From positions 62,001 to 126,000 of the forward strand of contig NZ_NFJH01000006.1 in assembly GCF_002159765.1 (NCBI RefSeq): DNA of 64,000 nucleotides, written 5' to 3'. Made by a program: the position numbers and the translations under genes. The notes under the pieces are model-generated. The model did not search any database, was not told the DNA's origin, and saw only the letters and a list, made by a program, of their open reading frames with translations. This document shows, piece by piece, positions 5,477-27,170 of this stretch (position 1 is its first letter; each line of letters starts with the position of its first letter). This DNA comes from Collinsella sp. An268. Its GTDB lineage: Bacteria; Actinomycetota; Coriobacteriia; Coriobacteriales; Coriobacteriaceae.

Positions 5477-7664
5477 GATCGCGTGGGGCAACGTGCGGCG
5501 CGCTGGACGGGACTATCTCGTCTACCTGCTCACGCTCACGTTGGCCGTCACCGTTTTCTATGCGTTCAACACCATCTCCATCCAAGTGGACATCGCCGGC
5601 GTGACCGCGCAGAACGACGGCATGGGCGAGCTTCTCGGCAGCATCATCGCGGGCCTCACGGTGTTTCTTGCCGTGGTGATGGGCTTTCTCATGGTCTATG
5701 CCAACAACTTCATCATGAAGCGCCGTAAGAAGGAATTCGGCCTCTACCAGGTGCTCGGTATGGGGCGCGGCCAGGTGTCCGTTATCATGGCGCTCGAGAC
5801 CCTCTTTGTGTCCGGTGCGGCCCTCATTCTCGGCCTCATCCTCGGCCTCGCGCTCTCGCAGCTCATGGTGTTCTTCACCGCGTCCCTCTTCAAGACGCAG
5901 ATCAGCGACTTCCATTTCTTCTTCTCGCTCGGCGCGTTTATGCAGACGGTCGGGTGCCTTGTGGCGATCTTTCTGGTCACGCTCGTTTTCAACCTGCGCG
6001 TGGTGCGCCGCGCGCGCATCGTGGACCTTATGAGCGCGAACCGTCAAAACGAGACCGTCAAGACGCGCAACCCCTGGATCTCGGCGGCCATCTTTGTGGT
6101 GGGCCTCGGGGCGATTATCGTGGCGTACGCGCGCCTGCTGCACGACGGGTTGCCCTACGACGGCCAGCCCGAGGCGATGGGGGCCTTCTTTATCACCACC
6201 GCCATGGTGGTTGCGGGCACGATCCTTTTCTTCTTCGGTCTTGCCGGTTTTCTGCTGAAGGCCCTGCAGAGCGCCCGGGGCGTGTACTGGCGCGGTCTCA
6301 ACATGGTGACGCTCCGGCAGCTCTCCGCGAAGGTCAACACGGTCAGCTTCTCGATGGCGATGATCGCGATGATCCTCTTTTTGGCCATCACGTCGGTGAC
6401 CACGGGCATGTCGCTCGCAGACACCATGAACAACTCGGTCGAGCGCGGCACGCCCGTGGACTATACGCGCTGCCTCGTGTACTGGGGGCCGAGCGTGGTG
6501 GACGAGATGAACGCCGACGCGGCCGCGGATGACGCCGGGATGCGCTATGCGGTTGCCGACGGTCCGGTCGATATGATGGCTGCGAGCTCGAGCGACGTCA
6601 TTGATCCCGGGACGGGTGAGACACACCCGTTCGATCTTGCCGCCATTGCCGGCGACTATATGCAGGTTGATACGTTCGATTCCACGCCGCGCGGGGCGAG
6701 CGAGCCCGTGGTGAGCCTCGTCGACCTGTGCGATGCTGTGGACATGCCGCTGCCGGCAGGGGTCGATGCGTCCAATCTGTCGTCGCTCGGCCTCGCGGTT
6801 ATGACCGAGAGCAACTACAATGCCTACCTGCGGTTCCGGGGGATGGAGGAGATCGACCTCGGGAAGAGCGGCTATACCATCACGTCCGATATGGGCGCCT
6901 CGGTAAACGACATCTACAACGCGGTGCTCGGCCAGGGGGTTGCGCTTGAGATTGGCGGGCGCACGCTCACGCCGGTGCAGAGCCGCGTGCCGGAGGACGC
7001 GAGCACGTTCCAGAACGCCATGATGGGGATGAACGCGGGCACCATCGTGCTGCCCGACGACCTGGTGGCCTCGCTCGACCTCGCACCTTACTACAGCTAC
7101 CTCATGGTCAACTACGCAGATGGTATCTCGACCGAGGAGGGCGATGCGTACATCGGCGAGTACCGCGTATACGGCGACATCACCAACGACGCGGGCGAGA
7201 GCATCGCCAGCTGGGGCTCAGAGGCCACGCGCACCACGACGTACGAGAGCACGGACTCCATGAACGGCCTCATCAGCTACCTCGCCATCTACATCGGCTT
7301 CGTGCTGGTGGTTGCCTGTGCGGCGATCCTCACCATCCAGCAGCTCTCGGGCGTGGCGGACGCCGGCAAGAACTACCGCATCTTGGCGGAACTCGGCACC
7401 CGGACCGGCGAGATCGCGCACTCGGTCCTCGTGCAGCAGACGGTGTTCTTCCTGTTCCCGCTTATGGTGGGCGTCGCTCACTCCGCCTGCGCGCTCAGCG
7501 TGATCATCAAGCTCGTGGCGCTCTTTGGCGGGCTTACCATCGGCGGCACGGTGGGCATCACGGGTCTCATCTTTGTGGTGGCCTACGGCGGTTACTTCTG
7601 CGTGACCTACCTTATGAGCAAGGGCATGGTGCGCGACTTTGTGCGAACAAGGGTTGCGGCATAA
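5466..7664 (+). CDS. FtsX-type ABC permease, BceB/YxdM-like
   Basis: A 732-aa protein. ATG 5466 is preferred over the GTG at 5454 because GGTGAGGG precedes it. It overlaps the ATPase stop by 11 nt. About ten membrane helices are visible: an N-terminal group, a pair near 60-200 containing the FtsX-like helix bundle, then further helices. A large extracytoplasmic domain (~325-600) follows, with a final three helices. This architecture matches BceB-class permeases, whose big external domain binds peptide antibiotics. It is followed by a terminator and then a YxeA-like gene, the same order as in Bacillus yxdLM-yxeA. Confidence 0.88.
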   Translation: MLCKIAWGNVRRAGRDYLVYLLTLTLAVTVFYAFNTISIQVDIAGVTAQNDGMGELLGSIIAGLTVFLAVVMGFLMVYANNFIMKRRKKEFGLYQVLGMGRGQVSVIMALETLFVSGAALILGLILGLALSQLMVFFTASLFKTQISDFHFFFSLGAFMQTVGCLVAIFLVTLVFNLRVVRRARIVDLMSANRQNETVKTRNPWISAAIFVVGLGAIIVAYARLLHDGLPYDGQPEAMGAFFITTAMVVAGTILFFFGLAGFLLKALQSARGVYWRGLNMVTLRQLSAKVNTVSFSMAMIAMILFLAITSVTTGMSLADTMNNSVERGTPVDYTRCLVYWGPSVVDEMNADAAADDAGMRYAVADGPVDMMAASSSDVIDPGTGETHPFDLAAIAGDYMQVDTFDSTPRGASEPVVSLVDLCDAVDMPLPAGVDASNLSSLGLAVMTESNYNAYLRFRGMEEIDLGKSGYTITSDMGASVNDIYNAVLGQGVALEIGGRTLTPVQSRVPEDASTFQNAMMGMNAGTIVLPDDLVASLDLAPYYSYLMVNYADGISTEEGDAYIGEYRVYGDITNDAGESIASWGSEATRTTTYESTDSMNGLISYLAIYIGFVLVVACAAILTIQQLSGVADAGKNYRILAELGTRTGEIAHSVLVQQTVFFLFPLMVGVAHSACALSVIIKLVALFGGLTIGGTVGITGLIFVVAYGGYFCVTYLMSKGMVRDFVRTRVAA

Positions 7665-7672
7665 CGGGAACG

Positions 7673-7706
7673 AAGCGGGCCGGTCGACGTTGTCGCCGGC
7701 CCGCTT
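7673..7706 (+). terminator. Terminator between the permease and the YxeA-like gene
   Basis: An 11-bp perfect inverted repeat, AAGCGGGCCGG / CCGGCCCGCTT, with a 12-nt loop, starting 9 nt after the permease stop. It would reduce but not necessarily abolish read-through into the next gene. Confidence 0.6.
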
Positions 7707-7775
7707 GCGTAACGGGTGCCGTGGGAACCTATGGAGACGCGCTTTTGCGCGATCGAGGCGGAAAGGAGACGCAAG

Positions 7776-8159
7776 ATGATGAAGCGTGCGGTGAAGGTGC
7801 TGGTGGTGCTCGCTCTGATCGGGGTCGCCGCCGTGGGCGCCTGGTGGGGTTACAACCAGATGTTCGGCGCGGGCGAGGCCTGGTACGTGCAGGTGGACAA
7901 CACCCGGCTCACGCAGGCGGGGGAGAACAACAACGATTTCCCGTATCACTACGACCTGCCGGCGGTGGACGCCGCGGGCGCGGAGCGCGAGCTCGGCTTC
8001 GACACGAGCCGCGAGCTGCGCGAGGGGGCGTATCTGCACCTCACCACGCTCGCGCTGCGCGGCGTGGTGCGCTGGGAGGAGGTTGCATGGGAGGAGATCC
8101 CTGCTCCCGCGCAAGAGAAGCTCGCGCCGCCTGTTGAGGGGAGCGGCGATGCTGCGTAA
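7776..8159 (+). CDS. YxeA-family (DUF1093) exported protein
   Basis: A 127-aa protein from ATG 7776, with GGAAAGGAG upstream. A basic start (MMKR) and a hydrophobic segment at ~5-25 form an uncleaved signal or anchor. The outside part opens with WYVQVDN and contains FPYHYDLPAVDAAG, then ends in a small beta-rich domain, as in YxeA proteins. In Firmicutes this family is encoded next to yxdLM/bceAB-type transporters, as here. Its biochemical function is unknown. The last 11 nt overlap the next small gene. Confidence 0.78.
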   Translation: MMKRAVKVLVVLALIGVAAVGAWWGYNQMFGAGEAWYVQVDNTRLTQAGENNNDFPYHYDLPAVDAAGAERELGFDTSRELREGAYLHLTTLALRGVVRWEEVAWEEIPAPAQEKLAPPVEGSGDAA

Positions 8160-14952: not shown

Positions 14953-15066
14953 CACGCTTTCTGGGAAGCTGGCGGCAGGTGCGGTCGACAGGCGGACCGT
15001 GATGAGACTGCTGCCCTCCTCTCATATCATGAACGGGAAAGCCACTGGAGTGAGAAAGAGGCTGCT

Positions 15067-15957
15067 TTGTTCTGCTCTGCATGCGGCGCCAAGGTGCGCG
15101 ATGCAGATTCGTATTGCTGGAAGTGCGGCGCCAAGGTCGGCGCCCCCGATGAAGCGGGGTCGGAGGATGCCATACCTGCTGAAGCTGATGCATCGCAAGC
15201 AGATGGGTCGTTGTTGAAGTCTGCCATTGGGGCTTCCACTGAGGGGCGGCATCAGGTTCTTTTCGTACATGAGGACGGAACCATACAGGAAAAGGGTCCC
15301 AAATACGCCTTCGGGGATGATGACATATCGACCCCCAAGGTGCAGCAGGCATGCATCGATCCTTCGGTGTACACGGGGACGTGGTTTGATGTTCATCAGG
15401 CGGTGCTTGCCACGGGTTTCACCTTCGAGGGGCTCGATCTCTACGGAGAGACCCCAAAGCTGATCTATCGCGTCAACCCCGCGCTATTTCCCTTTGTCCC
15501 ATACGGAACATCAGAAGATTGTCTTGCCGTTGACATTGCGGGAATCAATGTTTCGTCGGTGCGAACGCTCGATGATATTCCGTATCAGCTCAAGGTCGGC
15601 TCGCTGCAGCTCTTCCTACCTAACGTGGACACCCATGTTGACACTTCGACGTTGGTCAAAATGGTGCAAGTGGCGGCGCACCACGTTGGTTTTGCTCCTC
15701 GGACGATTTACGAGGGCGTCGTAGGGAACCACAACCTGACCGATGCACTGGCTTCCGCATTTGGGCTTGCGGGCAAAACGACGATCGTTGGCGAAGCCTG
15801 GGGTTCGAGCGCTGTTCAGTATTACGACAAGCGCAAGGATACGTGCCAAGGATATGGCCTCAAAGCGCGCCTACTGGATTATGTCGGTCATCCCTACGCA
15901 GTCTACAAGGCCTCCTTGGATGTTGGATACGGCATCAATCTTGTGACCTGCGCGTGA
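15067..15957 (+). CDS. Zinc-ribbon protein of unknown function at the edge of the type VII/Ub-like locus
   Basis: A 296-aa protein with a TTG start at 15067, which puts the first zinc-ribbon Cys at residue 3; GAAAGAGG precedes. Residues 1-25 hold two CxxC pairs (CSACG, CWKCG). An Ala/Glu/Asp linker follows, then LFVHEDGTIQEKG, a weaker form of the PDGTIHV motif in the facing operon. The remaining ~210 residues form an unrecognised alpha/beta domain. It points towards that operon and is less GC-rich by eye than the flanking genes. It shares zinc ribbon and motif with the protein at the other end of the locus (26337-27170). Confidence 0.75.
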   Translation: MFCSACGAKVRDADSYCWKCGAKVGAPDEAGSEDAIPAEADASQADGSLLKSAIGASTEGRHQVLFVHEDGTIQEKGPKYAFGDDDISTPKVQQACIDPSVYTGTWFDVHQAVLATGFTFEGLDLYGETPKLIYRVNPALFPFVPYGTSEDCLAVDIAGINVSSVRTLDDIPYQLKVGSLQLFLPNVDTHVDTSTLVKMVQVAAHHVGFAPRTIYEGVVGNHNLTDALASAFGLAGKTTIVGEAWGSSAVQYYDKRKDTCQGYGLKARLLDYVGHPYAVYKASLDVGYGINLVTCA

Positions 15958-15975
15958 GGATGTTAGGAGCTGAGC

Positions 15976-16452
15976 CTAGCTCTTATCGATGAAGAATTGG
16001 ATATAGATGAAGCATACGATGAATACGACGACACCGAGGATGGGAAGCCCGAAAAGCCCGCCGCCAAGCGCCATCGCTACGCCGCCCAGTAATGCGGAGG
16101 CTATGATGTTGGCGAAAAAGTTGAGGCAGCCCGTTGCCCCCTTGCTCTCTGTATCCTGCGTTTGCGTTGACGCTGGTGTTGCTTGCGTGTTCCTGAATTC
16201 CGTTCCCCGGGGGCTGTTGTCGTTCGATTGACGGGCCGAAGTGCGCGCACCGGATTTTTTATCTTTGGATTTGGACGTGGTAGGTTGTGATTTCTGTCGT
16301 GCGCGCGGACCGGTAGAGGAGCCACTGTTGCTTACATGGATGGTCCCGTCTGAGCCGATTTTGGTGCTCGAGACATCGGGCTTCTCTTCCTCGTCTACGC
16401 GGATGGTCCCGTCTGGGCCGATGGTTATCTTGGGTTTGTTTTTGTCGGGCAT
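15976..16452 (-). CDS. Small membrane protein with two DGTI[HR]V motifs
   Basis: A 158-aa protein from ATG 16452, with AAGGAA upstream. The N-terminus has ITIGPDGTIRVDEEEKP and then KIGSDGTIHVSNS. A long Ser/Thr/Lys/Gln-rich, probably disordered linker (~45-105) follows. The C-terminus has two hydrophobic helices (LNFFANIIASALLGGVAMAL and LFGLPILGVVVFIVCFIYI). It is the last gene of the operon. No known family. The repeated motif suggests a binding tag or small beta unit on the cytoplasmic side, but that is inference. Confidence 0.72.
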   Translation of the reverse strand: MPDKNKPKITIGPDGTIRVDEEEKPDVSSTKIGSDGTIHVSNSGSSTGPRARQKSQPTTSKSKDKKSGARTSARQSNDNSPRGTEFRNTQATPASTQTQDTESKGATGCLNFFANIIASALLGGVAMALGGGLFGLPILGVVVFIVCFIYIQFFIDKS

Positions 16453-16513
16453 AATGTGTTCCTTGTTGTCGTACCTCTCGATTGGGGGCGTAGGGGGAGA
16501 TATTGTTCATGTG

Positions 16514-16882
16514 TTACAGATCGAGCCAAACGCCAATGAAGTAAAGGGCGGCGCCGAATAATAACACCGGCATGGTTATGAAGGGGGCTCCAAGTGCTGC
16601 GGCAATGAAGATGAGAAGAGCCACGCCTACAAGAAAATATGTCAACTTGGACGGTTCAGATTCCTTCTGCTGAAGGTCGCTGGGTGCTTTCTTTCGTTGT
16701 GATGCCGTACTTGCTCGAGGTGATGTCACTGCTGGCGTCTTTTGGTTGCCACTGGTTTTCTCTGACGCTTTCTTGCTCGACGTGTTGAGTTTGTTGCTAG
16801 CGGGTGCGGCGGGCTTCTCTTTATCGTCCACGTGGATGGTACCGTCGGGATCGATGGTTATCTTTGGTCTCTTCACTGTCAT
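16514..16882 (-). CDS. Small membrane protein with one PDGTIHV motif
   Basis: A 122-aa protein from ATG 16882, with AAGGAA upstream. It opens with ITIDPDGTIHVDDKEKP, then a Lys/Ser/Thr/Gln-rich linker, then two C-terminal hydrophobic helices (YFLVGVALLIFIAAALGA, ITMPVLLFGAALYFIGVWL). The same layout as its two neighbours indicates gene duplication with divergence of the linker and helices. Confidence 0.72.
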   Translation of the reverse strand: MTVKRPKITIDPDGTIHVDDKEKPAAPASNKLNTSSKKASEKTSGNQKTPAVTSPRASTASQRKKAPSDLQQKESEPSKLTYFLVGVALLIFIAAALGAPFITMPVLLFGAALYFIGVWLDL

Positions 16883-16937
16883 GAGAATTCCTTATGATGC
16901 TTGCAGTGCGCAGAAGACGGCGGTATTTCGATGTCTT

Positions 16938-17372
16938 CTATTTAAATAGAGCTTTGATGAAAACCACAACTACCCATAAACCGAACGCCATGCCTGCCAG
17001 ACCGATTATGGGGATGCCGAGGCCGAACTGAGCGTAGGCGGCGGCCGCAATAAAGGCGATGAAGATAATGCAGCCGAGGCATCCCCCAGAGTCGCTGGAG
17101 TCATCGGAGCTCTGCGATTCATCGCCATGTTTTGTCGCGCCTGCTTCTGCGGATGCGTTGACCGTGGGGTTCTTGTTCTCCTGCTTGGCCTTCTGCTTTG
17201 ACGACTTATCGGGTTGTCTGGTAGACGTTTCGGGTTTGCGTTCTTCGCCATGTATATGGATGGTTCCATCGGAATCAATTGATGTGTCGGACGAAGCTCC
17301 GGGCTTCTCTTTATCGTCCACGTGGATGGTGCCATCGGGGCCGATGGTTATCTTGGATTTCTTTTCTGCCAT
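16938..17372 (-). CDS. Small membrane protein with two DGTIH motifs
   Basis: A 144-aa protein from ATG 17372, with AAGGATCCC upstream. It starts with ITIGPDGTIHVDDKEKP, then SIDSDGTIHIHGEERKP. A polar, Lys/Asp/Ser-rich linker precedes a Cys-containing helix (GGCLGCIIFIAFIAAAAYAQ) and a final helix (IIGLAGMAFGLWVVVVFI). The first motif is nearly identical in protein and DNA to that of the neighbouring gene (16514-16882), pointing to recent duplication or selection on the motif. Confidence 0.74.
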   Translation of the reverse strand: MAEKKSKITIGPDGTIHVDDKEKPGASSDTSIDSDGTIHIHGEERKPETSTRQPDKSSKQKAKQENKNPTVNASAEAGATKHGDESQSSDDSSDSGGCLGCIIFIAFIAAAAYAQFGLGIPIIGLAGMAFGLWVVVVFIKALFK

Positions 17373-17407
17373 GGGATCCTTGCTTTCAGGGTGGTGTGGT
17401 TAGTAGG

Positions 17408-18250
17408 TTATGAGCGCTTGCGGCGCACCTCGAGCGGGAACTTCTGATGGCATTTCCCGCAGGTGACGCTTACCTGGCAATCGGCGTTGGGCACGGTCAC
17501 GCGCACTTTGACGCCGCAATGGGGGCAGGTGCAGACGGCTTTGGCGCGCGGTCCCTCCACGTGGTCGAGCGGAACGGTGCGAGGTTGCGGTGCGGGCTCG
17601 GGTTCAGGAGTCGCGTGCGATGGGGACGAGGGTTGCGTTGCCGGCGCCGAGGTCCTCTCTGCCCGAGGTGCCCGCGCCGGATTGGGTGCGGGTCGCGGTG
17701 CCGGCGCCGGTCGCGGCGCCGGAGCGGGCTGCGGTGTCGATTGCGGCTGCGGCGCGGATGCCTGAGCCGGTCGCGGCGCCGGCGCCGGCGCGGTGGGCCT
17801 CACGGCGCCGCTTTGCACCATATCGATCGCCTGCATCACCACCTGGCCCATGTCCTCGTAGTACATCTCCTGCTGCTGTGCCTTGCTGGCGTTGAGCATG
17901 CGGGTGACGCCCGATAGGATGGCGTGATCGCGCCGTGTCATCTCGGCAGAGCGCATATTGCGGGTGTATTTGTCGGTGCCCACGTAGTAGACCATGAGGC
18001 GGGTCGAGAGCCCCGAGCCTTCTTGCGTCAGCACCGCCTTCGAGTATTTGCGCGGCTCCGTGGCGTGCGTGATGACGAGCCCCTCGACGGAATCTCTCAG
18101 AAAGCCGGCGGGTTTGACCTCGGTTACCTCGACCACCATGGGCAGGCCGTGGGTGCCCACCAGCTGCTCGATGGCGGTTTTAAGCGTGGCGAACGAGAGG
18201 GCGCTTCCTATGTTGATGCGCTCGGCGGGGGTATCGGGTAGCTTGATCAT
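17408..18250 (-). CDS. Protein with Pro/Ala-rich linker and C-terminal zinc ribbon, unknown function
   Basis: A 280-aa protein from ATG 18250, with AAAGGAG upstream. Residues 1-~150 form an unrecognised alpha/beta domain (VEVTEVKPAGFLRDSVEGLVITHA). Residues ~152-225 are a low-complexity linker of Pro/Ala with repeated PAPRPAPAPRP. The C-terminal 45 residues carry CPHC...CGKC, a zinc ribbon. It is encoded between the WXG-like/coiled-coil pair and the small membrane proteins. It may be an adaptor that bridges complexes, an inference from its layout. Confidence 0.75.
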   Translation of the reverse strand: MIKLPDTPAERINIGSALSFATLKTAIEQLVGTHGLPMVVEVTEVKPAGFLRDSVEGLVITHATEPRKYSKAVLTQEGSGLSTRLMVYYVGTDKYTRNMRSAEMTRRDHAILSGVTRMLNASKAQQQEMYYEDMGQVVMQAIDMVQSGAVRPTAPAPAPRPAQASAPQPQSTPQPAPAPRPAPAPRPAPNPARAPRAERTSAPATQPSSPSHATPEPEPAPQPRTVPLDHVEGPRAKAVCTCPHCGVKVRVTVPNADCQVSVTCGKCHQKFPLEVRRKRS

Positions 18251-18271
18251 GGCCGGCTCCTTTGGCGATCG

Positions 18272-18796
18272 TTAGAGGTGCTTGGTGTTGACGGAGACGT
18301 CGACGGCGTAATACTCGTCGAGGGCGCGCTCGAGCTGGGCAACGGAGAGGCCGAGGGTCTCGGTGTAGCGGTTGCCCGGCCCCTCCAGAATCTGCGTCAC
18401 CTTGAAGACGGCGTCGTCAAACTCCCGCTTGCGCTCGATGAGCTGGGCCTCGTAGTCTGCGGCGCGACGGGCGCGCATCTCGGCCTCCGCCTTGGCCTCG
18501 GCGAGCAGCACCGCCTGGCGGCGGGTCTCCTGCCAGTAGTCGAGCCGCTCGTCATCGGAATGCGCATAGCGCACATCGTGGTCGATGTGCCACAGCTTGT
18601 CCTCGGCCGTGCGTGCGGTCGCCTCGGCCTCTTCGCGGAGCCCCCGTACCTCGCGGATGCGGTCCTCCATCGTCTGCTGCAGGTCACACATGATGCGCTC
18701 GATGATGCGGTCCTGCTCGCGCATCACGCTGTCGAGCCGCTCGGCGCTCGCGCGAAAAGCGGCAAGTTCTTCCACATCGCGGGCCACGCCCACCAC
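18272..18796 (-). CDS. Coiled-coil protein in the type VII-like operon
   Basis: Up to 174 aa. The start is one of several in-frame GTGs (18796, 18793, 18787) below an AAAGGA; the longest is listed. Almost the whole chain is charged helix with heptad character (MREQDRIIERIMCDLQQTM, RREAE/AEMRARRAADYEAQL-type stretches). No membrane segment. It sits directly downstream of the WXG-like gene and may be its partner or a larger helical substrate/chaperone. Confidence 0.68.
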   Translation of the reverse strand: MVGVARDVEELAAFRASAERLDSVMREQDRIIERIMCDLQQTMEDRIREVRGLREEAEATARTAEDKLWHIDHDVRYAHSDDERLDYWQETRRQAVLLAEAKAEAEMRARRAADYEAQLIERKREFDDAVFKVTQILEGPGNRYTETLGLSVAQLERALDEYYAVDVSVNTKHL

Positions 18797-18823
18797 GTCC
18801 TTTCAGATAGTGCGCCCGGGCCG

Positions 18824-19099
18824 CTATACGCGAATGCTCAGGTAGTCCTCAAGCGCGCCGCGCAGCAGCTGCACGCGTGTGATGCACTCGTGGATGTCGG
18901 TGTAGGGCGCCTGGATCTTGGCGGTGATATCGCTGATGACGCGCTGGAGCTCTCGGCACTTCTCGTCGTCCCACTCGTCCTGCACGGTGGCGTACGCGCG
19001 GACGAGGTGCTCGCTCGTCTCCTTCTGCATCTCGAGTACTTTGAGGAGCTCTTTGACCATGTCGTTCATGGCCTCTACTGCTTGCTGTCCTCTTGCCAT
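18824..19099 (-). CDS. WXG100-like helical protein
   Basis: A 91-aa protein from ATG 19099, with GAAAGGAA upstream. It is all helical with a central turn at VQDEWDDEKCRELQ, where W-D-D takes the place of the W-x-G turn of WXG100/ESAT-6 proteins. Length, acidic/amphipathic helices and position next to an FtsK/EssC-like ATPase support assignment to the wider WXG100-like group. The strict WXG motif and the C-terminal YxxxD/E secretion signal are not evident. It may be a secreted partner or a structural hairpin protein. Confidence 0.62.
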   Translation of the reverse strand: MARGQQAVEAMNDMVKELLKVLEMQKETSEHLVRAYATVQDEWDDEKCRELQRVISDITAKIQAPYTDIHECITRVQLLRGALEDYLSIRV

Positions 19100-19141
19100 G
19101 GTGTTCCTTTCGTCGGGGTGGGGTGGCAGATGCGGGGCGGG

Positions 19142-22100
19142 TTACCGCGCGGAAAGCGGTGGTAGGTTCTCCGCGTCGATCAGATAGGGTTTGAAGACGA
19201 GGGGCGGGTGTGCGCCGTCCCACATAACGGCGGTGTTGTCGCGCAGGGCCGCCGGGTTGATGTCGGGGATGATGAAGTGGCATTGGTTGTCGGAGAGCCC
19301 GTGCACCACGCGCCACGCCATCTTGGGCAGGGTCTCGTAATGCATCTCCTTGACGGCGAGGTAGTCCGTGTTGAAGAGCGCGCAGGCGATGCCGCGCGTA
19401 TGGCCGTATTCCGTGAGGTCGCCAAACGTGCGCCTGTCGGCGAGAACCGGCGGTGCGGCCATCGCGTCTTTCGCGCCCGCCGGGGTGGCCGCGTCGCGCG
19501 GGGCTCCCCCGCCCGCCGTGTCGGCGGTGTGGGCGGTGTCGTCTGCGTACGTATCGTTGAGGGCGTTGATCTTGGCGAGCATCTCCTCAAAGGAATCGAG
19601 GTGCGGGATGCCCGGGGCGCTGGTATCGGGCGAGGGCCGGCTCGCTGGCGGCGCCGGTTGGTGCGAGGGCTTGTCGGCCGGGGCAGATGCGACCGGCGTG
19701 GCGGTGGGGGACGTCTGCCGCCACGTGCCGAGGTCGCGTCCCGCCACAAAGGCGGCGAGGGGTTCGGCGAGCTGATGGTCTCCGACCACGGCGAAGAGCA
19801 TCTCTTTGCCGGCCGCGCCCATCGCGCGCTCTTTGAGCTCGCGGGCGATGCCGTCGAGCGCCTCGACCATCTCGGCCCATGTGCGCGCCACGCGCACGCG
19901 TCCGCCCGCCCACCGGCAGACGGCCTCGGTCGCGGTGCGGGTCCCGTCGCCGGCGGCAAGGTGGGCGTCCAGCACGTAGACGTTGGCGCCCGCGCCCGGC
20001 GTGGCGGCTACGGCGCCGGCGATGTAGGCTGCCTCAAGACGGTCGACCATGTCGGATGAGACGGAGGTGGCGATGAGGGTGGAGCGGCGCGTGGGGCTGA
20101 TCTCGAGGGAGCTCGCCTGACCCATGCGCGCGGGCTCGCCCAGGGCGATGCGCAGGGGCGCGCCGACGGGGGTGCCCGGCGCGGCGGGTGTGCTCGCGGC
20201 GGCAAAGGCCGCGCACGCGCTCAGGCGCGGTATGTCCATGCCACGGTAGACAAAGGCAGGCTCCGCGTCCATGCTGGCATAGCGCTCCTCAACGGCGCGG
20301 AGCACGCGCTCCTTCTCGGCATCGTCGCAATAGACAAAGCGGAAGGAGCGGAGGTCGGGCTCGGCGGCATCCTTGTCAACGAGGTAGACGCCGGAGCCCT
20401 TCTCTTTGCCGAGCAGGCGGCGCGCGTCGGCGGCGATGCGGTCGCCAAAGAGCTTCGCAAACTCGGCCTCGGAGTTGTTGAGGGCGATGCGCACGTTTAC
20501 CTGCGAGAGGTCGCGGTCGCTCATGCTGCAGCCCAGGTTGAGCGAGGCGAGTGCCTGTGTGGAGAGGATGAAGTGCATGCCAAAGGCGCGCGCCGTCTGG
20601 AAGAACGTGCGCAAGACGGCTGCGGCGCGATTGGCGGCGCGTCGGTCGGTCGCCTCGTTGAGGAGAACCTGGAACTCATCGAGCACCACGAGATAGCGGG
20701 GGAGCGGCGACGGCGAGGCGCGGCGCGCGGCGGCGTAGCTGGTCACCCCGAGCTCCTGGTAGAGCTTGGCGCGCCGCTGCAGCTCGGTGTACAGCTCCTC
20801 GAGCACGCTCGCACCAAACGCCTGGTCGGCGTCGAGGGCGACGACGCGCAAATGGGGCAGGCGGTACTGCGCGTACACCTCAAACTCGACGCCCTGCTTG
20901 AAATCGAGCAGGTAGAGCCTGAGGTCGTCGGGCCCATAGGTGGCAAGGCCGGAAAGGATGATGGCATGCAGAAGCGATGTCTTGCCCGTGCCGGTGGTGC
21001 CGGTGGCGAGGGCGAAGTGCGAGAGGCCGTCGGCCACCGCATCGCCGAACTCCAGCGCAAGCGGCGCCCCGTCGGGCATGAAGCCAAAGGGGATGGAGAG
21101 CTTGTCGGTGGGGTCGCCCGCGCCCATGCGCTCGGCGGGCACCAGGCCCGCGAGCCCGCGGTAGCGCGCCGCCGCGGCCGCACGCTCGCCGGCAAGCGCC
21201 TGCTGGATGCTCTCGAGCGACGTCCAGCTCGTCTCCTCGCAAAAGAGCTTGGTGCCCCAGACCCGATAACCGTCGTCGGCGCAATCGATGATGAGGTTCT
21301 CCTCGGGCAGGCTGGCGAGCAGGTTGTACGTGCCGCGCCACACCTCGCCCTCGGCCGGGGGCAGGGTGTTCATCAGCAGGTTGACGCCGGCGTGGTGGCC
21401 GTGCGTGGCGATGTTGACGAGCGCCTCGGCCCAGCTCTCGTCCACGGCCGGCGGCATGTTGATGGCGATGACGGTGAGGAGCGGCGCGTGGTTGCCGGCC
21501 ACACCGCCCGTCTGCTCCACCATGTCGAGCGTGGTGGCGTAGCCCCCCTGCATGACGGTGGCCAGCACGTCCCGTAGTGCGTGCAGCGCCTCTTGCGGGT
21601 CAGAGATGACATCTGCCTCCAAGAGCTCGGGGCACGTGCGGATAAAGGGCAGGTCGATCTCAAGCCCCGTTGCCGCGCCGGAGAGGTCGATGACGAGGAA
21701 CCGCTGGCGCCCGGCGCGCGTCCCGGCGAGCTCTTGCGCGGCGATGAGGCTCATGAGGGGGAGCGCCTGCGAACGGTTGCCCACAACCGTGCACGAGCAG
21801 TTCTCGCTGCGGTCCAGCAGCTGGGGGACGATGAGGTAGTCGCCATCGAGGCGCTCCGCGTAGCACGCGCGATACGCCGCCGGGATATCGAGTAGGGCGG
21901 GCGTGTCATCGGTGAACTCAGGCGTGAAGGGGCCGTCCGGCAGCTGGTAGGCGAGCCAGCCGAGCATCAGGAAATCGCAGGTCTCCCGCGCGGGGGTCTT
22001 GAGGGCGTCGAGCGCGAGGTTGGCGAGCGTGTCGAGCAGCTCGACCTCCTGGGGTGCGAGGATCTGGGCAAAGCCCTCCCCCGCGGCGCGGGCACGGGCG

Positions 22101-22762
22101 CGCTCGCGCCGCTCAGCCTCCGCTTCGAGTTCGTCGAAGCTGGCGTGCTGCGGGGCGCCGCCCAGGGCGGGGTCGTTTGCGAGCCGCGTGGCGATGCGGT
22201 CACATTCCCGCTGGATAAACGGGTTCCTCAGACCCGTGTAGAGGGCTTTTGCCTGCTCGATCACCTGGCTGAGCTGCTGGCAGGGGACCCCGTCCTGCAG
22301 CAGGCGCGGCAGCCGCGCGCTCGCGGCGATCTGGTCGCGCAGACGCTCGGCGGAGGCCAGGCACCCCTGCAGGGCGCTCACCACGTCGGCGAGTGTGTTC
22401 GAGGGGTCGAGCTCGGTCTCGTACCCGGCCTGCCAGGCATCGCCTACGTCGAGCATCCCGCTGCGCTCCTGCCGATAGAGCGAGCTGATGGAGCGCACGT
22501 AGGCGTCTACGTCGTCGATGCGATGGGCCAGGTGGTCCGCCTGCCCCAGGAGCGGTTTGATGGCGCGGTCGAACTCCGCGTCGATCGCCTCTTTGAAGCG
22601 CCGGTCGCGCTCCTCAAAGTGCGCGAGGTCCTCGCTCGCTATGGTCGAAAGCTCCTCGGCGGTGTCGGACGCGATTTTCAGGATGTCGCGCGCGGCGTCG
22701 AGGGCTGACTGGCCGAGCTCGTGGAGGCGTTCGTCTACGCGGTGCAGGTGGGGGATGGGCAT
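19142..22762 (-). CDS. Soluble FtsK/SpoIIIE (EssC-like) multidomain ATPase
   Basis: A 1206-aa protein from ATG 22762, with TTAGGT upstream. Residues ~1-270 are helical/coiled. The central FtsK domain has Walker A GTTGTGKTS (Lys594) and Walker B YLVVLDEFQ (Asp695/Glu696), with a FILSTQ motif after. A degenerate ATPase-like module precedes it (~320-530; VGNRSQA at the P-loop position) and another follows (~860-1010). This tandem layout resembles EssC/EccC of type VII secretion, but no transmembrane helix or N-terminal FHA domain is visible. A Pro/Ala linker (~1035-1085) leads to a C-terminal domain of ~100 residues. It is the likely motor of this locus. Confidence 0.9.
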   Translation of the reverse strand: MPIPHLHRVDERLHELGQSALDAARDILKIASDTAEELSTIASEDLAHFEERDRRFKEAIDAEFDRAIKPLLGQADHLAHRIDDVDAYVRSISSLYRQERSGMLDVGDAWQAGYETELDPSNTLADVVSALQGCLASAERLRDQIAASARLPRLLQDGVPCQQLSQVIEQAKALYTGLRNPFIQRECDRIATRLANDPALGGAPQHASFDELEAEAERRERARARAAGEGFAQILAPQEVELLDTLANLALDALKTPARETCDFLMLGWLAYQLPDGPFTPEFTDDTPALLDIPAAYRACYAERLDGDYLIVPQLLDRSENCSCTVVGNRSQALPLMSLIAAQELAGTRAGRQRFLVIDLSGAATGLEIDLPFIRTCPELLEADVISDPQEALHALRDVLATVMQGGYATTLDMVEQTGGVAGNHAPLLTVIAINMPPAVDESWAEALVNIATHGHHAGVNLLMNTLPPAEGEVWRGTYNLLASLPEENLIIDCADDGYRVWGTKLFCEETSWTSLESIQQALAGERAAAAARYRGLAGLVPAERMGAGDPTDKLSIPFGFMPDGAPLALEFGDAVADGLSHFALATGTTGTGKTSLLHAIILSGLATYGPDDLRLYLLDFKQGVEFEVYAQYRLPHLRVVALDADQAFGASVLEELYTELQRRAKLYQELGVTSYAAARRASPSPLPRYLVVLDEFQVLLNEATDRRAANRAAAVLRTFFQTARAFGMHFILSTQALASLNLGCSMSDRDLSQVNVRIALNNSEAEFAKLFGDRIAADARRLLGKEKGSGVYLVDKDAAEPDLRSFRFVYCDDAEKERVLRAVEERYASMDAEPAFVYRGMDIPRLSACAAFAAASTPAAPGTPVGAPLRIALGEPARMGQASSLEISPTRRSTLIATSVSSDMVDRLEAAYIAGAVAATPGAGANVYVLDAHLAAGDGTRTATEAVCRWAGGRVRVARTWAEMVEALDGIARELKERAMGAAGKEMLFAVVGDHQLAEPLAAFVAGRDLGTWRQTSPTATPVASAPADKPSHQPAPPASRPSPDTSAPGIPHLDSFEEMLAKINALNDTYADDTAHTADTAGGGAPRDAATPAGAKDAMAAPPVLADRRTFGDLTEYGHTRGIACALFNTDYLAVKEMHYETLPKMAWRVVHGLSDNQCHFIIPDINPAALRDNTAVMWDGAHPPLVFKPYLIDAENLPPLSAR

Positions 22763-22771
22763 AGTGGGTAC

Positions 22772-23062
22772 CTAACAGACGAGGGGGTGGGAGGGGTCGC
22801 GCGCCGCGCGCTCGTCGCGGGCGGCGTCGTCGCTCACCTCGTAAAACCGGTGCGCTGCCTTGCGCATGGCATCGAGGGCCTCGATGAGCGCCGTCTGGGA
22901 GCGGAGCATGGGCTCGATGTAGGCATCCTGCAGATCGGGCACGTGCGGGTCGCCCGCCATGTTCTGCTTGAAGGCGCCCCAACGCGTGCCAAACGTGGCG
23001 GAGGCGTCGGCGATGGCGGCGAGGCTCGCGCGGATGCTCGCTTCAGACTGGTACGCGTCCAT
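22772..23062 (-). CDS. Second small helical protein, WXG100-like in size
   Basis: About 96 aa. ATG 23062 lies 1 nt after the stop of the E1-like gene; an alternative start at 23080 would overlap it. The sequence is helical with a central TRWGAFKQNMAGDP segment, containing W-G rather than W-x-G, and a second helix LRSQTALIEALDAMRKAAHRFYE. Only 9 nt separate it from the ATPase gene. By size, fold and place it is a candidate EsxA/EsxB-like partner, but similarity is weak. Confidence 0.55.
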   Translation of the reverse strand: MDAYQSEASIRASLAAIADASATFGTRWGAFKQNMAGDPHVPDLQDAYIEPMLRSQTALIEALDAMRKAAHRFYEVSDDAARDERAARDPSHPLVC

Positions 23063-23063
23063 G

Positions 23064-24356
23064 TCACGCACCCCGCTCATAGGTGCACGGCGGGCAACCG
23101 TCGCGGAAGCCGACCATGAGCGACGTGGTGACCTGCAGGGGATAGCTGAAGATCTCGGCCATCTCGCCGCCCACGGCGGGGTCGTTGGTGTTGCACACGA
23201 GCGTGTACTGGGTGAGGTGGGGGAGCAGACGCTGGGTAAAGCGCGGGTTGCCCTCGTTCAGGATGTCGAGGGCGAGCTTGATACCGATGATGGTGACAAA
23301 GTTGATGTCGATGGAGATGCCGGGCTCAAAGTTGACGGCGGCGAGGTCCGCCTGGTCGGAGTAGATGTGGTGGTTCGCCTCCACGCGCTGGGAGATGCCG
23401 TCTTCGCCCGCCCCGAGGGCGCAGCGGTAACAGGGCTCTCGGCGCCCGGGCAGCCAGTAGAAGATCTCGCCCGCAAAGGCGCGCTCCCAAAATCCGATGG
23501 AAAGGTAGGGTACCTGGTAGAGCACGGCGATGCTGTTGCCGTACGCGTCTGCCGCCCGCCCGTCGGCGCAGCCCATGAGGAGGGTCTCGCCGGGTACGAT
23601 CCACCGGTCGAAGACGTCTTTGGCGACCTGCTCCGCGGTGGTGCGGGCCGCCTCCACATGCGCGCAGGGGTTGATGGCGAGGATGCGGTCGCGCACGGCA
23701 TCGACCTTGTAGCGGCCCACGTCCTCCACCCCGCACTGGTGGCGGCAGATGTTGTGGTACTCAAAGATGTCGGCGTCCACGAGCAGGAAGTTGCCCACGC
23801 CGGCGCGCGCGAGCTCCAGCACCACGAGGCTCCCCACCGAGCCGCATCCCAGAACGGCGACGCGCTTGGCGGCCATAAGGTCGGTCTCCAAAATGCCGGT
23901 GTTGCGCGAGAACACATCGCGGTGCAGGTCGTAACGCTCGACGGCGTAGCGCCCGCCCGGTCCCACGCAGACGAGCTCGGGCTCCGCCGCGTCCGTCCAG
24001 TAGAGACAGAACCCCTGAGGCTCCTCATGCGCGACGGGCGCGTCGTCAACGTGCGGCGCGTCCGCCTCCCCCTCGGCAGGGCCCGCGCCCTTGATCAGCG
24101 CCAGAAGGTCCCGCTTGCTCGCGGGGCGGGTGCGTCTGTCCAGATCGCGCGCCCAGGCGGGCGCATCGGCAAGGGTGGGGTAGATGCGCCCGACCTCACG
24201 GGCCCGCTCCGCGTGCGGCGTGCCGGGGGCGAGCACGTTCAGCACGCCGGTCTCGGCGTGATAGATACCGCGCACGGCGCCGGTGGCGCGGGCGTCGATG
24301 AGCGAGCCGGGGACGAGCGCCCGCAACGTGGTGGCGGCGGTGGTGCCAAAAGCCAT
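23064..24356 (-). CDS. ThiF/MoeB-family E1-like adenylyltransferase
   Basis: A 430-aa protein from ATG 24356, with AAGGGAGGA upstream. An N-terminal domain (~1-150) precedes the Rossmann-type adenylation domain. The nucleotide loop is GCGSVGS (170-176), followed by VDADIFEYHNICRHQCG with the Asn, Arg and Gln that E1 enzymes use to bind ATP, and by GCADGR. CYRC (in PCYRCALG) and CPPC near the C-terminus are a likely structural zinc pair, as in MoeB/ThiF. E1 enzymes activate the C-terminus of a ubiquitin-like protein. With E2-like and JAMM genes next door, it should start a conjugation pathway. Confidence 0.9.
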   Translation of the reverse strand: MAFGTTAATTLRALVPGSLIDARATGAVRGIYHAETGVLNVLAPGTPHAERAREVGRIYPTLADAPAWARDLDRRTRPASKRDLLALIKGAGPAEGEADAPHVDDAPVAHEEPQGFCLYWTDAAEPELVCVGPGGRYAVERYDLHRDVFSRNTGILETDLMAAKRVAVLGCGSVGSLVVLELARAGVGNFLLVDADIFEYHNICRHQCGVEDVGRYKVDAVRDRILAINPCAHVEAARTTAEQVAKDVFDRWIVPGETLLMGCADGRAADAYGNSIAVLYQVPYLSIGFWERAFAGEIFYWLPGRREPCYRCALGAGEDGISQRVEANHHIYSDQADLAAVNFEPGISIDINFVTIIGIKLALDILNEGNPRFTQRLLPHLTQYTLVCNTNDPAVGGEMAEIFSYPLQVTTSLMVGFRDGCPPCTYERGA

Positions 24357-24371
24357 GATGGTCCTCCCTTG

Positions 24372-25580
24372 CTAGGAGACGGTGACGCAGGCGGGGTGCG
24401 GGGCGCCGTGCGCGTCGAGTGCCCGGGTGATGGCGCCCGTCCGCAGCAGTATGGTGGCATCTGCCGCGGGAAGGCGGAGCGCAAAGGTAGCACTGCCATT
24501 TGCCTGCGGTAGCTTGCCGATTACGCCGAGCACGCGCTCTGCGTGCCCGTCGGTTGCAACGAGGCGCAGGCGTTGCTCGCGGTCGAGGGAGAGCTCGAGC
24601 TCGACGCCGCGGGCGGCAAGCGCCGCGCCGTCGGCTTCGGTGATGTGCACGGCTTGCGCGAGCTCGTCGTCGGTCCAAAGCGCGGTGTCCCAGACCGGCT
24701 CCGCCCCGTCGAAAACGGGGCGGTCATGGGATGCCTGGCGTGAGACGGCGTCCTCCCAGAGCTCGGCGAGTTCGGTCAGGCTGAGCGCCGGCGCCGCCGG
24801 CGCGGGAGCTGCTCCGGCGTGCAGGGCGCGCTTGTTTTGCGCGGCGAGCCGGCGCATGAGGGCGTCCGGCGCGCAAAGGGGCGCCTGAGCGAGGCTTTCC
24901 TCCCATGTGAGAACGGTAAAGGGGACGCGGGTGTAGCCGCAGGTCTGCCCGTCGACGTGGAAGAGCGTGAGGCGCGGCTCGGGGTCGATGTTGACAAGGC
25001 CGCTTAAGGACCCCCAGGGGCTCAGCTGCGCGTAGCGCGCGTTGGTGCCGTCGTCGGTGTTGCTGAAGCGGTCAAAAGACCCGGGGTGGCGGTGCCAGAG
25101 GCCGATGACCTCGAGCGGGCGCTCGTACAGGCGCACGATGCGGTTGGCAAGGTGGTTCACATAGGGCTGGTCGTACTCGAAGAAGGCGAACTCAAACACC
25201 GAGTTGGGGCCGGGGTCGATGGACTCCGCCACCAGCCAGTCGTCGCCATCGCGGTAGCCCAGAAGGATGCCGCCCGTCTCGGTTGCCACCTTATACAGGG
25301 TCTCGCTCAAAAGCGAGACCCAGGCGCGCTGGGTAAAACGCACGTGGAGGTGCTCCGGCGCAAACGGAGGGACGGGCCGCTGCGGCGGGGTGTCGCGGTC
25401 GTCCAGGTGCGTGGCGGCAGCGCCCTCGGCCGCGTACGCGTCCGCCTCATCATCGGCGCCGTACCGGTCTTGGCGGGAGCCGACGCTTGCGCGGGGACGC
25501 GACGCCCGCCGCGGCGTGGGTCGCTCCCCCGGCAGCGAGATCAAGCGGCGCAGCAGGTCGCCCCAGATCCTAATACACAT
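24372..25580 (-). CDS. JAB/MPN (JAMM) metalloprotease, predicted deconjugase or modifier-processing enzyme
   Basis: A 402-aa protein from ATG 25580, overlapping the E2-like gene by 11 nt. After a ~65-residue basic/disordered N-terminus comes a JAB domain. Glu101 in TETGGILLGY and the run H163-R-H165-...-S173-N-T-D176 match the JAMM consensus HxHx7SxxD exactly, so a zinc isopeptidase should be active. The C-terminal half (~250-402) is an unrecognised domain rich in short beta strands. JAMM enzymes trim or remove ubiquitin-like proteins. The E1/E2/JAMM set resembles bacterial Bil/Bub-type and CBASS Cap2-Cap3 chemistry. Confidence 0.9.
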   Translation of the reverse strand: MCIRIWGDLLRRLISLPGERPTPRRASRPRASVGSRQDRYGADDEADAYAAEGAAATHLDDRDTPPQRPVPPFAPEHLHVRFTQRAWVSLLSETLYKVATETGGILLGYRDGDDWLVAESIDPGPNSVFEFAFFEYDQPYVNHLANRIVRLYERPLEVIGLWHRHPGSFDRFSNTDDGTNARYAQLSPWGSLSGLVNIDPEPRLTLFHVDGQTCGYTRVPFTVLTWEESLAQAPLCAPDALMRRLAAQNKRALHAGAAPAPAAPALSLTELAELWEDAVSRQASHDRPVFDGAEPVWDTALWTDDELAQAVHITEADGAALAARGVELELSLDREQRLRLVATDGHAERVLGVIGKLPQANGSATFALRLPAADATILLRTGAITRALDAHGAPHPACVTVS

Positions 25581-26061
25581 CGGCAAAGACCTCTCTCGTG
25601 GGAAGCTCGCCCTCGAGCCATTCCTCGACGATGAAAATCCACTTGGCAGCCCAAGCGAGCGACGAGGCGGCTGAGGTCGCCTCATATTCCTTCTTGCCCC
25701 CGTGCAGGCCCTCTTTGACGTACTGGCGGTCGCTCGTGCACATGTAGTAGTGGTTCGCCTCATCGACGAGGACGTGCGGCAGGCTGCCCGCCGCACGGCA
25801 GAGCTCGTCGAGGTCGGGCTTGATGGAGTAGATGCGCACCGACGAGCCGTACCGGGCATCGTTATTGGGATGATCGTGCTGGTAGATGGCCATGAGCGTC
25901 CATGTGCCGCCCGCCTTGCCGCGCGGATTCAGCGTACCCACCCAATAGAGGCGCCCGTCGTCGAGCGTCTGCAGCTTGAAGTGGGGGAAGAACTGCTGCA
26001 TGGCAGCCTTCTCCGCCTGAAGCAGCTCGGGGTTGCGCTCGTACCAGTAGAAGGACGCCAT
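25570..26061 (-). CDS. E2-like (ubiquitin-conjugating fold) protein
   Basis: A 163-aa protein from ATG 26061, 1 nt after the previous stop. The central part, LPHVLVDEANHYYMCTSDR, aligns by eye with the PHV....G.LCL region around the active cysteine of prokaryotic E2-like proteins, making Cys108 the candidate catalytic residue. The C-terminal AASSLAWAAKWIFIVEEWLEG gives the alanine/tryptophan-rich helices typical of that group. Size (~160 aa) fits an E2 core. The assignment rests on motif and context, not on a search. Confidence 0.7.
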   Translation of the reverse strand: MASFYWYERNPELLQAEKAAMQQFFPHFKLQTLDDGRLYWVGTLNPRGKAGGTWTLMAIYQHDHPNNDARYGSSVRIYSIKPDLDELCRAAGSLPHVLVDEANHYYMCTSDRQYVKEGLHGGKKEYEATSAASSLAWAAKWIFIVEEWLEGELPTREVFADVY

Positions 26062-26062
26062 C

Positions 26063-26287
26063 TTACGCGAGCACCCCCTTGGGAACGAAGACCTCGACCT
26101 CGCCGTCGACGACCTCCTCTACGGGCGTGCCGTCGGGCGTCTCGTTGGCGCTGTGGACCGTGCCCGCGTGCGAGACGTTGATGGGCTCGTTGTTGCGGAG
26201 CATCTCGGCGATGCGTCGGCGCTGCGCCGCGGCGGCGTTGTCGTCGTTGGACGGTGCGGCGGTCATACCTGCGGGAATGTGGGACAT
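26063..26287 (-). CDS. Small 74-aa protein; possible modifier candidate
   Basis: ATG 26287 is chosen because TAGGAGGTACCCC precedes it; the frame goes on to 26428 without support. Residues 1-30 are Ala/Asn/Arg-rich and probably helical or disordered. The rest has short beta-like stretches (PINVSHAGTVHS, GEVEVFVPKG). The chain ends KG-VLA: if the neighbouring JAMM protein cut after Gly71, a Gly C-terminus would be exposed, as in a pro-ubiquitin-like protein. No ubiquitin fold is recognisable, so this is only a candidate based on place and size. Confidence 0.65.
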   Translation of the reverse strand: MSHIPAGMTAAPSNDDNAAAAQRRRIAEMLRNNEPINVSHAGTVHSANETPDGTPVEEVVDGEVEVFVPKGVLA

Positions 26288-26336
26288 GGGGTACCTCCTA
26301 GTCTTCGGTGTGCAGGATGGTTGTTCGCACTTTGTT

Positions 26337-27170
26337 TCAGATCGCCTCAGAAGCCGGCGCCTCGTAGGCGAACGCGACGCTGAGCTCCGATGTGCCGTCA
26401 TGGGCCAGGTATTTGATGGTGTACGCATCGCCGCACGAGGTCGATCCGCTCACGGCGGCGCCCGTGCAGGGGGCGGCCGAGGCGTCGGCGCGCCACAGCT
26501 TCTCAGCCGCGCCCGATGGGTGGATGAGGGCGGCGAAACGTTTCCTCGCGTCCGCGATGAGCTCTACCGAATCGCTGGCGAGCAGCGTGATGGCGTCGAG
26601 GTGCGCGTGGTCGAGGACGGCGCCTATCACCGCCAGGGCGTCGATCGCTTTGCTCGGGATGGAGATGAAAGCCCACGCGCTCGCTATGCGGGTGTTCGCG
26701 GGGATGGCATCGAGGGGGATCCAGCCGTTCTCTTCGGGCAATGAAGCGACCGGTGCAAGAAAGAGGGTCGCGTCCAGAGGGGCGCGGACCAAGCCAAAGG
26801 GCTCAGGGAGGGTGCTTCCTCCTCCCCTTGCGAGGACCGCGATCTCCATCGGGCGGTCGGATGCGCCGCGCGCGGCTTTCAGCCGGCATCCGAGCTGCTC
26901 GAGGTCTCGTCTGACCTGACCGAAGGGGCGTTGGAAGAAGGCGGGGCTGTACCAGGCGCAGGGACCGTCTGCCGGGGATGCCGTCGTGTTCGATTTAGGG
27001 TGCTCGACGTGGATGGTGCCGTCTGGCGAGATGAGCACCTTGCCGACGCCTTTGGTGCCCGCGGGTCGGTTTGCGGACGATCTGCTTGCATGGCTGTCGA
27101 GCGCCGAGCCGCAGGACCAGCAGAACTTCGCACCGTCGTCCAACGCGGCGCCGCACTGCGAGCAAACCAT
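26337..27170 (-). CDS. Zinc-ribbon protein with PDGTIHV motif, first gene of the type VII/Ub-like operon
   Basis: A 277-aa protein from ATG 27170; a GTG 12 nt earlier is possible. CSQCG and CWSCG (residues ~2-24) make an N-terminal zinc ribbon. KVLISPDGTIHVEHPKS (~45-60) carries the motif shared with the small membrane proteins. The remaining ~210 residues form an alpha/beta domain that is not recognised, equal in length and layout to that of the 15067-15957 protein. The two are probably distant paralogues that bracket the locus. The 49-nt spacer to the next gene contains AGGAGG. Confidence 0.74.
   Translation of the reverse strand: MVCSQCGAALDDGAKFCWSCGSALDSHASRSSANRPAGTKGVGKVLISPDGTIHVEHPKSNTTASPADGPCAWYSPAFFQRPFGQVRRDLEQLGCRLKAARGASDRPMEIAVLARGGGSTLPEPFGLVRAPLDATLFLAPVASLPEENGWIPLDAIPANTRIASAWAFISIPSKAIDALAVIGAVLDHAHLDAITLLASDSVELIADARKRFAALIHPSGAAEKLWRADASAAPCTGAAVSGSTSCGDAYTIKYLAHDGTSELSVAFAYEAPASEAI

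Follow-up and report, generated by a model that had tools for sequence, protein, structure and literature searches.

Why should genes for an E1, an E2 and a JAMM protease, the enzymes of a ubiquitin-like conjugation pathway, stand in one operon with a relative of the type VII secretion motor, and what would such a pathway attach to what? The operon lies in a stretch of 64,000 nucleotides from the gut bacterium Collinsella sp. An268 (contig NZ_NFJH01000006.1, positions 62,001 to 126,000), hereafter the window; the source genome belongs to Coriobacteriaceae, in the same genus as Candidatus Coprousia avicola (assembly 2.37 Mb, 26 contigs). Open reading frame (ORF) analysis of the window gave 13 minus-strand ORFs, g01 to g13, running from 27170 down to 15976 with intergenic distances of -17 to +61 nt, and the zinc-ribbon, coiled-coil and three small membrane proteins that an earlier note on this DNA had listed among 13 same-strand genes lie where it placed them. 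The reading we favour, to which we give somewhat better than even chances, is that the operon encodes a reversible conjugation pathway in which a short (about 47-75 residues), Ala-ended modifier without a beta-grasp fold is coupled to a soluble EccC-like motor.

E2, JAMM and E1 form a conserved core

A search with the E1 yielded 21 loci, to which searches of genomes and viral contigs added further ones, and the resulting survey comprises 28 loci, the window included (L059, whose contig stops after the E2, was left out; two pairs, the window with L003 and L054 with L056, are near-duplicates). This neighbourhood survey revealed that the three genes recur together in the order E2-JAMM-E1 in all 28 loci and four phyla (Coriobacteriia, Bacillota, Bacteroidota and Treponema), with an EccC-like ATPase nearby in 15, the window among them, and usually with WXG-like neighbours. 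The fixed gene order and the share of loci with a motor indicate that the core is a conserved unit and the motor a frequent partner; since many loci lack an EccC-like motor, it is not needed for the conjugation core. The joining of pathway and motor seen by the earlier note therefore recurs across phyla, with the motor as an optional part.

The enzyme identities proposed in that note hold, as ThiF, Prok-JAB and PADLOC E2 models match g05, g04 and g03, respectively (Table 1). The JAMM residues E..HxHP..S..D are invariant in 17 relatives, Cys204 and Cys208 of g05 are kept in 15 of 16 aligned E1s, and Cys108 of g03 is invariant across 25 aligned E2 sequences. The E2 has no Pfam match, and the PADLOC models that match it are those of the E2 of the cyclic-oligonucleotide-based anti-phage signalling system (CBASS). 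Foldseek with its AlphaFold model (mean predicted local distance difference test, pLDDT, 81) returned nothing below 0.001, the list being headed by UFC1, UEV and UbcH7; the fold was then settled as E2 by VIA-align, whose 50 best rows were E2/UEV folds without exception, with CBASS CdnG-E2 8yjy at the top (Z 9.7). Sequence searches of the PDB returned nothing useful with the E2 profile and, with the JAMM profile, an Rpn11-like match at 0.009 and nothing else. With an E1, an E2 carrying a candidate active-site Cys and a JAMM protease encoded together, the operon belongs to the broad E1-E2-JAMM class. Second E2-like proteins adjoin the active E2 in L019 (7526-7969) and L016 (6117-7511); the one in L019 lacks the YxCT motif and is therefore probably an inactive E2.

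A short Ala-ended unit as the proposed modifier

Directly upstream of the E2 gene lies g02, whose 74-residue product the earlier note had not picked out and which we propose as the modifier. A strong ribosome-binding site precedes g02. Members of this unit family begin with an acidic stretch, continue with a helix (DAAAAKRREIAERL) and the hairpin [IV]x[IV]xxxGx[IV], and finish with the tail PxGKLA; in 21 aligned units the hairpin glycine and the final alanine, and nothing else, are invariant. The unit stands alone as a separate protein in Coriobacteriia and in part of the Bacillota; elsewhere it is fused to the N-terminus of the E2, singly or in tandem (tandem fusions in at least nine loci). 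Free units end in [LF]A in 10 of 11 cases and in LAA in L053, that is, in Ala in all 11. In the fused loci the E2 begins right after the Ala, in register with the start-codon residue of free E2 genes, and other sequences may follow the same junction, namely a DnaJ-type zinc finger in L007 and a helical extension in L008.

The tandem units of five loci differ by 9-20 nt versus 0-3 residues, and 2000 random placements of these changes per locus never resulted in so few residue changes; such silent codon divergence with a near-identical protein is the pattern of polyubiquitin. The family occupies one locus per genome in 16 of the 17 genomes searched, the other being a Lentimicrobiaceae genome (G403) with two separate unit-E2-JAMM-E1 loci (L014 and L011), each unit beside its own E2-JAMM-E1. 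Because the unit measures 47-52 residues between junctions and places its helix first, a beta-grasp fold is not expected for it; neither Pfam nor NCBIfam matched it, and there is a fair chance that it represents a new class of protein modifier. In L016 a four-helix membrane protein (7508-8068) starts with NIPAGKFA, the leader of that locus' unit-E2 polyprotein.

A DGTI tag on variable proteins of the locus

The motif [IV]xxDGTI, which the earlier note had not picked up either, occurs in one or two copies in each of g01, g11, g12, g13 and a convergent gene at 15067-15957. Searched against the whole genome, a profile of this tag found seven places, all of them here (E 4.7e-10 to 8.1e-7), the next match having an E of 1.66; because the sequences of this locus make up most of the profile, what counts here is that nothing matched elsewhere. 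An independent profile, built from L016, L018 and L021 and run on five genomes, gave matches below 0.01 in three genomes, all within their own E1-E2-JAMM loci, and two matches near 0.03 outside the loci. The motif falls within the first 60 residues in 34 of 229 nearby same-strand genes versus 2 of 148 others (Fisher 1.9e-6).

Most of the tagged proteins are small and lie in the membrane, and apart from the tag their bodies are unrelated. Comparing the window with its sister locus L003 revealed that the machinery is 93-99% identical, and that in g12 the tag region retains 22 of 26 residues and the body 32 of 120; L003 has no counterpart of g01, and g13 is without a full-length counterpart. The GC content over the tagged membrane-protein genes (window 15000-18000) is 54-58% versus 65-69% around, and no other genes diverge as much from L003; the region is variable and has perhaps been exchanged. 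The L055 modifier contains NNDGTIVNPG and an L012 membrane protein consists of a unit-like helix and a tag, so that tag and modifier hairpin may be related. From these sequences we infer that the tag could be the signal by which the conserved machine recognises its variable clients.

The motor is a soluble relative of EccC

The description of g07 in the earlier note as a soluble EssC/FtsK-like ATPase is borne out by its EccCa match (Table 1) and by its relatives: all 15 EccC-like ATPases (one a truncated frame) have the FtsK-type Walker A site intact, and none has a membrane helix, no hydrophobic 19-residue stretch scoring above 1.5. An EssC search of the host genome gave nothing above the cut-off. 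The ten main operon proteins gave no Pfam or NCBIfam match to EccB/D/E, EssA, EssB, EsaA or YukD, though some of the small membrane proteins may be analogues that escaped recognition; the remark that EssB/EsaA- and mycosin-type parts are missing is supported, with no channel partner recognised.

Two proteins had been called WXG100-like, of which g08 retains the name at sub-threshold level and g06 has no profile support. Five of seven g08 relatives match WXG100 below threshold (best 0.0064), six of six Bacteroidales counterparts match it (best 3.4e-5, likewise counted as sub-threshold), and hhalign links the g08 family to the Bacteroidales WXG-like set at 78%. For g06 no significant profile match was obtained, including against the Bacteroidales WXG-like profile, and its equivalents in L005, L007, L009, L023, L053 and L057 are positional. 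Coiled-coil proteins with HExxH motifs, zinc-metalloprotease-like, stand beside the WXG-like gene in L005 (15439-16803, QHELGHF) and L023 (13230-14150, FHEARHA). In L008 a TrwB/TraG-type coupling ATPase (805-2076) lies upstream of the unit-E2-JAMM-E1 set, as if substituting for the EccC-like motor. The motor would probably work at the membrane, via small membrane partners, on proteins that bear the modifier or the tag.

Distribution of the system

Carriers number 8 of 398 Coriobacteriia genomes and 2 in a sample of 393 Bacteroidota genomes, both of the latter previously found carriers. The E1 tree groups by phylum except for L019 and L020, two Bacillota-titled metagenome-assembled genomes (Clostridiales/Clostridium) within the Bacteroidota clade; either these bins carry a wrong name or there was transfer. 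Isolate-level records exist among the carriers (Olsenella sp. KGMB02461 and Prolixibacter bellariivorans ATCC BAA-1284), and the system is therefore testable. Plasmid cargo was rejected, the plasmid matches being generic ThiF proteins with a query coverage of at most 52%, and phage cargo likewise, as no phage record matched and IMG/VR gave two contigs only. Radical SAM genes lie near several loci (L009 6711-8132, L057 18071-19366, L052 18315-19001 and L011 11949-13115), and a part as peptide maturases of the system was set aside, since they stand outside the core. Sel1-repeat proteins accompany several loci (L009 16087-18384; L012 12074-13036) and are absent from the window operon.

Gene content of the window operon

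The features are collected in Table 1. The convergent gene, which lies beyond the coordinates covered by the earlier note, is probably part of the set as a further client.

Table 1. Genes of the operon and its convergent neighbour, in window coordinates
Gene	Position	Strand	Product	Evidence
g01	26337..27170	(-)	zinc-ribbon protein with DGTI tag (26985-27044), rest of body unfamiliar	Pfam Zn_Ribbon_1 8.5e-7; tag profile 8.4e-9
g02	26063..26287	(-)	74 residues, proposed modifier; helix, hairpin, C-terminal FVPKGVLA	ribosome-binding site AGGAGGT; unit family alignment; sole occurrence in the genome
g03	25570..26061	(-)	E2/UBC-fold enzyme; candidate active site Cys108 (25738-25740)	PADLOC E2 3.7e-10; model and fold match
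g04	24372..25580	(-)	JAMM metalloprotease, long C-terminal extension, motif GLWHRHPGSFDRFSNTDD	Prok-JAB 2.6e-7; PADLOC JAB 9.1e-11
g05	23064..24356	(-)	ThiF-type E1, N-terminal domain specific to family	ThiF 2.5e-24; PADLOC E1-E2 1.1e-28
g06	22772..23080	(-)	102-residue helical protein in WXG-like position, putative family link	positional equivalents
g07	19142..22762	(-)	EccC-like FtsK-family ATPase, soluble, single Walker A/B pair	FtsK_SpoIIIE 1.6e-20; EccCa 4.1e-28; PDB EccC 4nh0 5.7e-24
g08	18824..19099	(-)	91-residue WXG100-like protein (W-x-D)	family alignment; sub-threshold WXG100; hhalign
g09	18272..18796	(-)	coiled-coil protein	no family match; L003 copy 99% identical
g10	17408..18250	(-)	280 residues: conserved N-terminal domain, Pro-rich linker, C-terminal zinc ribbon	homologues in L005, L007, L009, L057
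g11	16938..17372	(-)	small membrane protein, two DGTI tags (17298-17357, 17232-17291), two hydrophobic helices	tag profile 1.2e-9, 4.4e-7
g12	16514..16882	(-)	small membrane protein, one DGTI tag (16811-16867)	tag profile 4.7e-10
g13	15976..16452	(-)	small membrane protein, two DGTI tags (16378-16434, 16312-16368)	tag profile 4.1e-9, 3.4e-7
convergent gene	15067..15957	(+)	zinc ribbon, DGTI tag (15253-15309) and unrelated body, as g01	tag profile 8.1e-7; BLASTP 4e-7 to g01 over ribbon and tag

Comparison with known systems

E1-E2-JAMM operons are already known, as is the fusion of a ubiquitin-like protein (Ubl) to an E2 beside a JAB protease, from FtsH/vWA-MoxR conflict systems. In type II CBASS a non-beta-grasp cGAS-like protein is conjugated by its last residue, a conserved Gly or Ala, behind which Cap3 also cuts when two cGAS copies are fused in tandem (PMC10097602). 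Type II CBASS supplies the best defence-model matches of the window E1, E2 and JAMM, and the C-terminal Ala of the free units agrees with the Gly or Ala at the end of its modifier, a similarity of working that does not imply membership. The window is unlike it in having E1 and E2 as separate genes and a small dedicated unit in place of cGAS; an EccC-like motor is added, as are WXG-like proteins and membrane proteins with the tag, and Pfam matched none of the ten main operon proteins to a CD-NTase.

The FtsH/vWA-MoxR conflict systems have separate JAB and E1 genes and a Ubl-E2 fusion from which JAB was proposed to free the Ubl, with a short adaptor domain (EAD) common to modifier and effector (Kaur 2020, PMC7159879). 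Separate JAB and E1 genes are found here too, as are fusions of the proposed modifier to the E2 and perhaps a short element shared by modifier and tagged proteins. By contrast, Pfam matched none of the ten main operon proteins to vWA, MoxR, FtsH, RING or EAD, no caspase-like part was recognised, and the window has an EccC-like motor and the DGTI tag. In the type VII secretion systems T7SSa-j, EccC/EssC is membrane-bound; T7SSd occurs in Olsenella, and E1/E2/JAMM belong to no type in that survey (PMC11217815). The window resembles T7SSa-j in its EccC-family ATPase next to putative WXG100-like proteins and departs from them in the solubility of that ATPase and in the Ecc, Ess, EsaA and YukD components named above, none of which was recognised.

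In the Bub, Bil and 6a-6e operons, as in the window, a single operon holds the genes for E1, E2 and JAMM. The modifiers of these systems have the beta-grasp fold and mostly end in Gly, and an FtsK-type motor is not described for them in the accounts found. Pup is a short, largely disordered helical modifier, ligated by PafA through the side chain of its C-terminal Glu without E1, E2 or JAMM. The proposed modifier is likewise short and helical and probably largely disordered, but the window has E1/E2/JAMM, and neither a PafA/Dop ligase nor ARC/proteasome is among the family matches of the operon proteins. Operon types 6a-6e hold E1, E2 and JAMM together, 6e with tandem Ubl repeats, possibly fused to an E2-like domain (Iyer 2006), and BilC processes BilA according to a review on Bil. 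The statement in the earlier note that known E1-E2-JAMM systems lack an FtsK motor agrees with the descriptions found (Iyer 2006, CBASS, Bil and Kaur 2020), which give none.

Proposed mechanism

Beyond the observed genes, folds and conserved residues we propose, from sequence and analogy, a chemistry, targets and a role. The modifier would be made free, as from g02 in the window, or as a tandem, E2-fused precursor, both gene structures being observed. The JAMM protease would cut precursors after the terminal Ala and later strip the modifier from its targets, for which Cap3 is the precedent. The E1 would adenylate the terminal Ala and load the modifier onto Cys108 of the E2 by a thioester bond, in keeping with the folds and residues observed. 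The E2 would then link it to target proteins, which most likely are among those of the locus that carry the DGTI tag, the majority of them membrane proteins. Where the motor is present, in roughly half of the carriers, the EccC-like ATPase and its WXG-like partners might deal at the membrane with proteins bearing the modifier or the tag, in export, assembly or removal. An Ala-ended modifier that is E1-activated, E2-carried and JAMM-released is the best-supported mechanism, given the CBASS precedent and the match of E1, E2 and JAMM to CBASS models. A more specific version, in which a mostly unfolded Ala-ended peptide of about 50 residues, free or as an E2-fused polyprotein, is matured and removed by JAMM and marks DGTI-tagged membrane proteins on which a soluble relative of the type VII motor acts, is offered tentatively, as possible rather than probable. 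A conflict role (competition or defence) would fit better than housekeeping, since carriers are few and scattered over several phyla and the tagged proteins change fast; to name defence or export is a guess.

Several points weigh against this picture. There is no EccC-like motor in 13 of the 28 loci, although at least three of these 13 (L004, L022 and L056) are on short contigs. The unit end in the fused rows and in L053 (GKLAA) was placed by the analyst, which makes the invariance of the Ala partly a product of construction, and the model of the unit is one helix and little else, at low confidence (pLDDT 35-71 in the unit part). The divergent E1 of L023 lacks C204/C208, and the assignment of the E1 catalytic Cys is uncertain. 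Moreover, the definition of the tag motif was drawn from inspection of the loci on which it was counted, and to take the tagged proteins for the conjugation targets, from their genomic confinement, is a guess.

Alternative readings

The unit might instead be an unconjugated adaptor, attached to the E2 and docking it on the E1, the motor or the tagged membrane proteins, with the true modifier another protein (perhaps a tagged client) or one encoded elsewhere. Fusion to the E2 N-terminus is indeed the commoner form of the unit, but free units stop exactly at the Ala where fused ones run on, and the sequences that follow this junction elsewhere are unrelated. Purifying selection would be expected on tandem docking modules too, and the apparent kinship of tag and unit hairpin (the L055 motif) would suit a binding module; a C-terminal Ala, on the other hand, fits CBASS-type E1 substrates. 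That the CBASS modifier, cGAS, is a client protein would allow a tagged client in this part, yet none of the window's tagged proteins has Gly or Ala at its C-terminus, and no other small conserved protein travels with the core. We consider an adaptor unlikely, though a serious contender.

Alternatively, the operon could be an anti-phage system of the CBASS, Bil or Bub kind that puts the modifier on phage or host proteins during infection, with the motor as effector, as its sparseness among Coriobacteriia and the CBASS models as nearest defence matches would suggest. A cyclase, an effector and a defence-gene neighbourhood were not found in the scanned proteins, however, plasmid or phage copies are absent besides the two IMG/VR contigs, and the tagged membrane proteins would be left unexplained; we rate this, too, as an unlikely account with some claim to attention.

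A true, undescribed type VII variant appears decidedly improbable; its channel would be built from the small membrane proteins, and conjugation would do no more than control the export of substrates that are WXG-like or tagged. The type VII label given by the earlier note fits the ancestry of the ATPase, with its EccCa-type domain and putative WXG100-like neighbours, and membrane proteins occur in every well-covered locus; membership fails on the soluble ATPase and the lack of a recognised channel partner. All 15 motor loci differ in this respect from the membrane-bound EccC/EssC of T7SSa-j (PMC11217815), the core does without the motor in the remaining loci, and no LXG or RHS-type substrate was recognised among the scanned proteins. 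A chance neighbourhood of unrelated genes, to which the non-universal motor might point, is refuted by the survey, in which the core order is fixed over four phyla and the motor stands beside it in more than half of the loci, and has next to no probability.

Implications

No description of E1/E2/JAMM combined with FtsK or type VII components was found in openly licensed literature, where absence is no proof, the closest being Kaur 2020; an EccC-like motor, WXG-like proteins and a non-beta-grasp mini-modifier are in none of the E1-E2-JAMM descriptions found. If our reading of the operon as a conjugation pathway coupled to a motor is true, ubiquitin-type conjugation would come to include a dedicated modifier for which a beta-grasp fold is dispensable, and the precursor logic of polyubiquitin would operate with a short peptide. 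Covalent tagging would be joined to an EccC-type motor, the first case as far as could be found. The system would then lend itself to simple tests of bare-tail recognition in a peptide by E1, E2 and JAMM enzymes, and would make a soluble relative available for study of the type VII motor.

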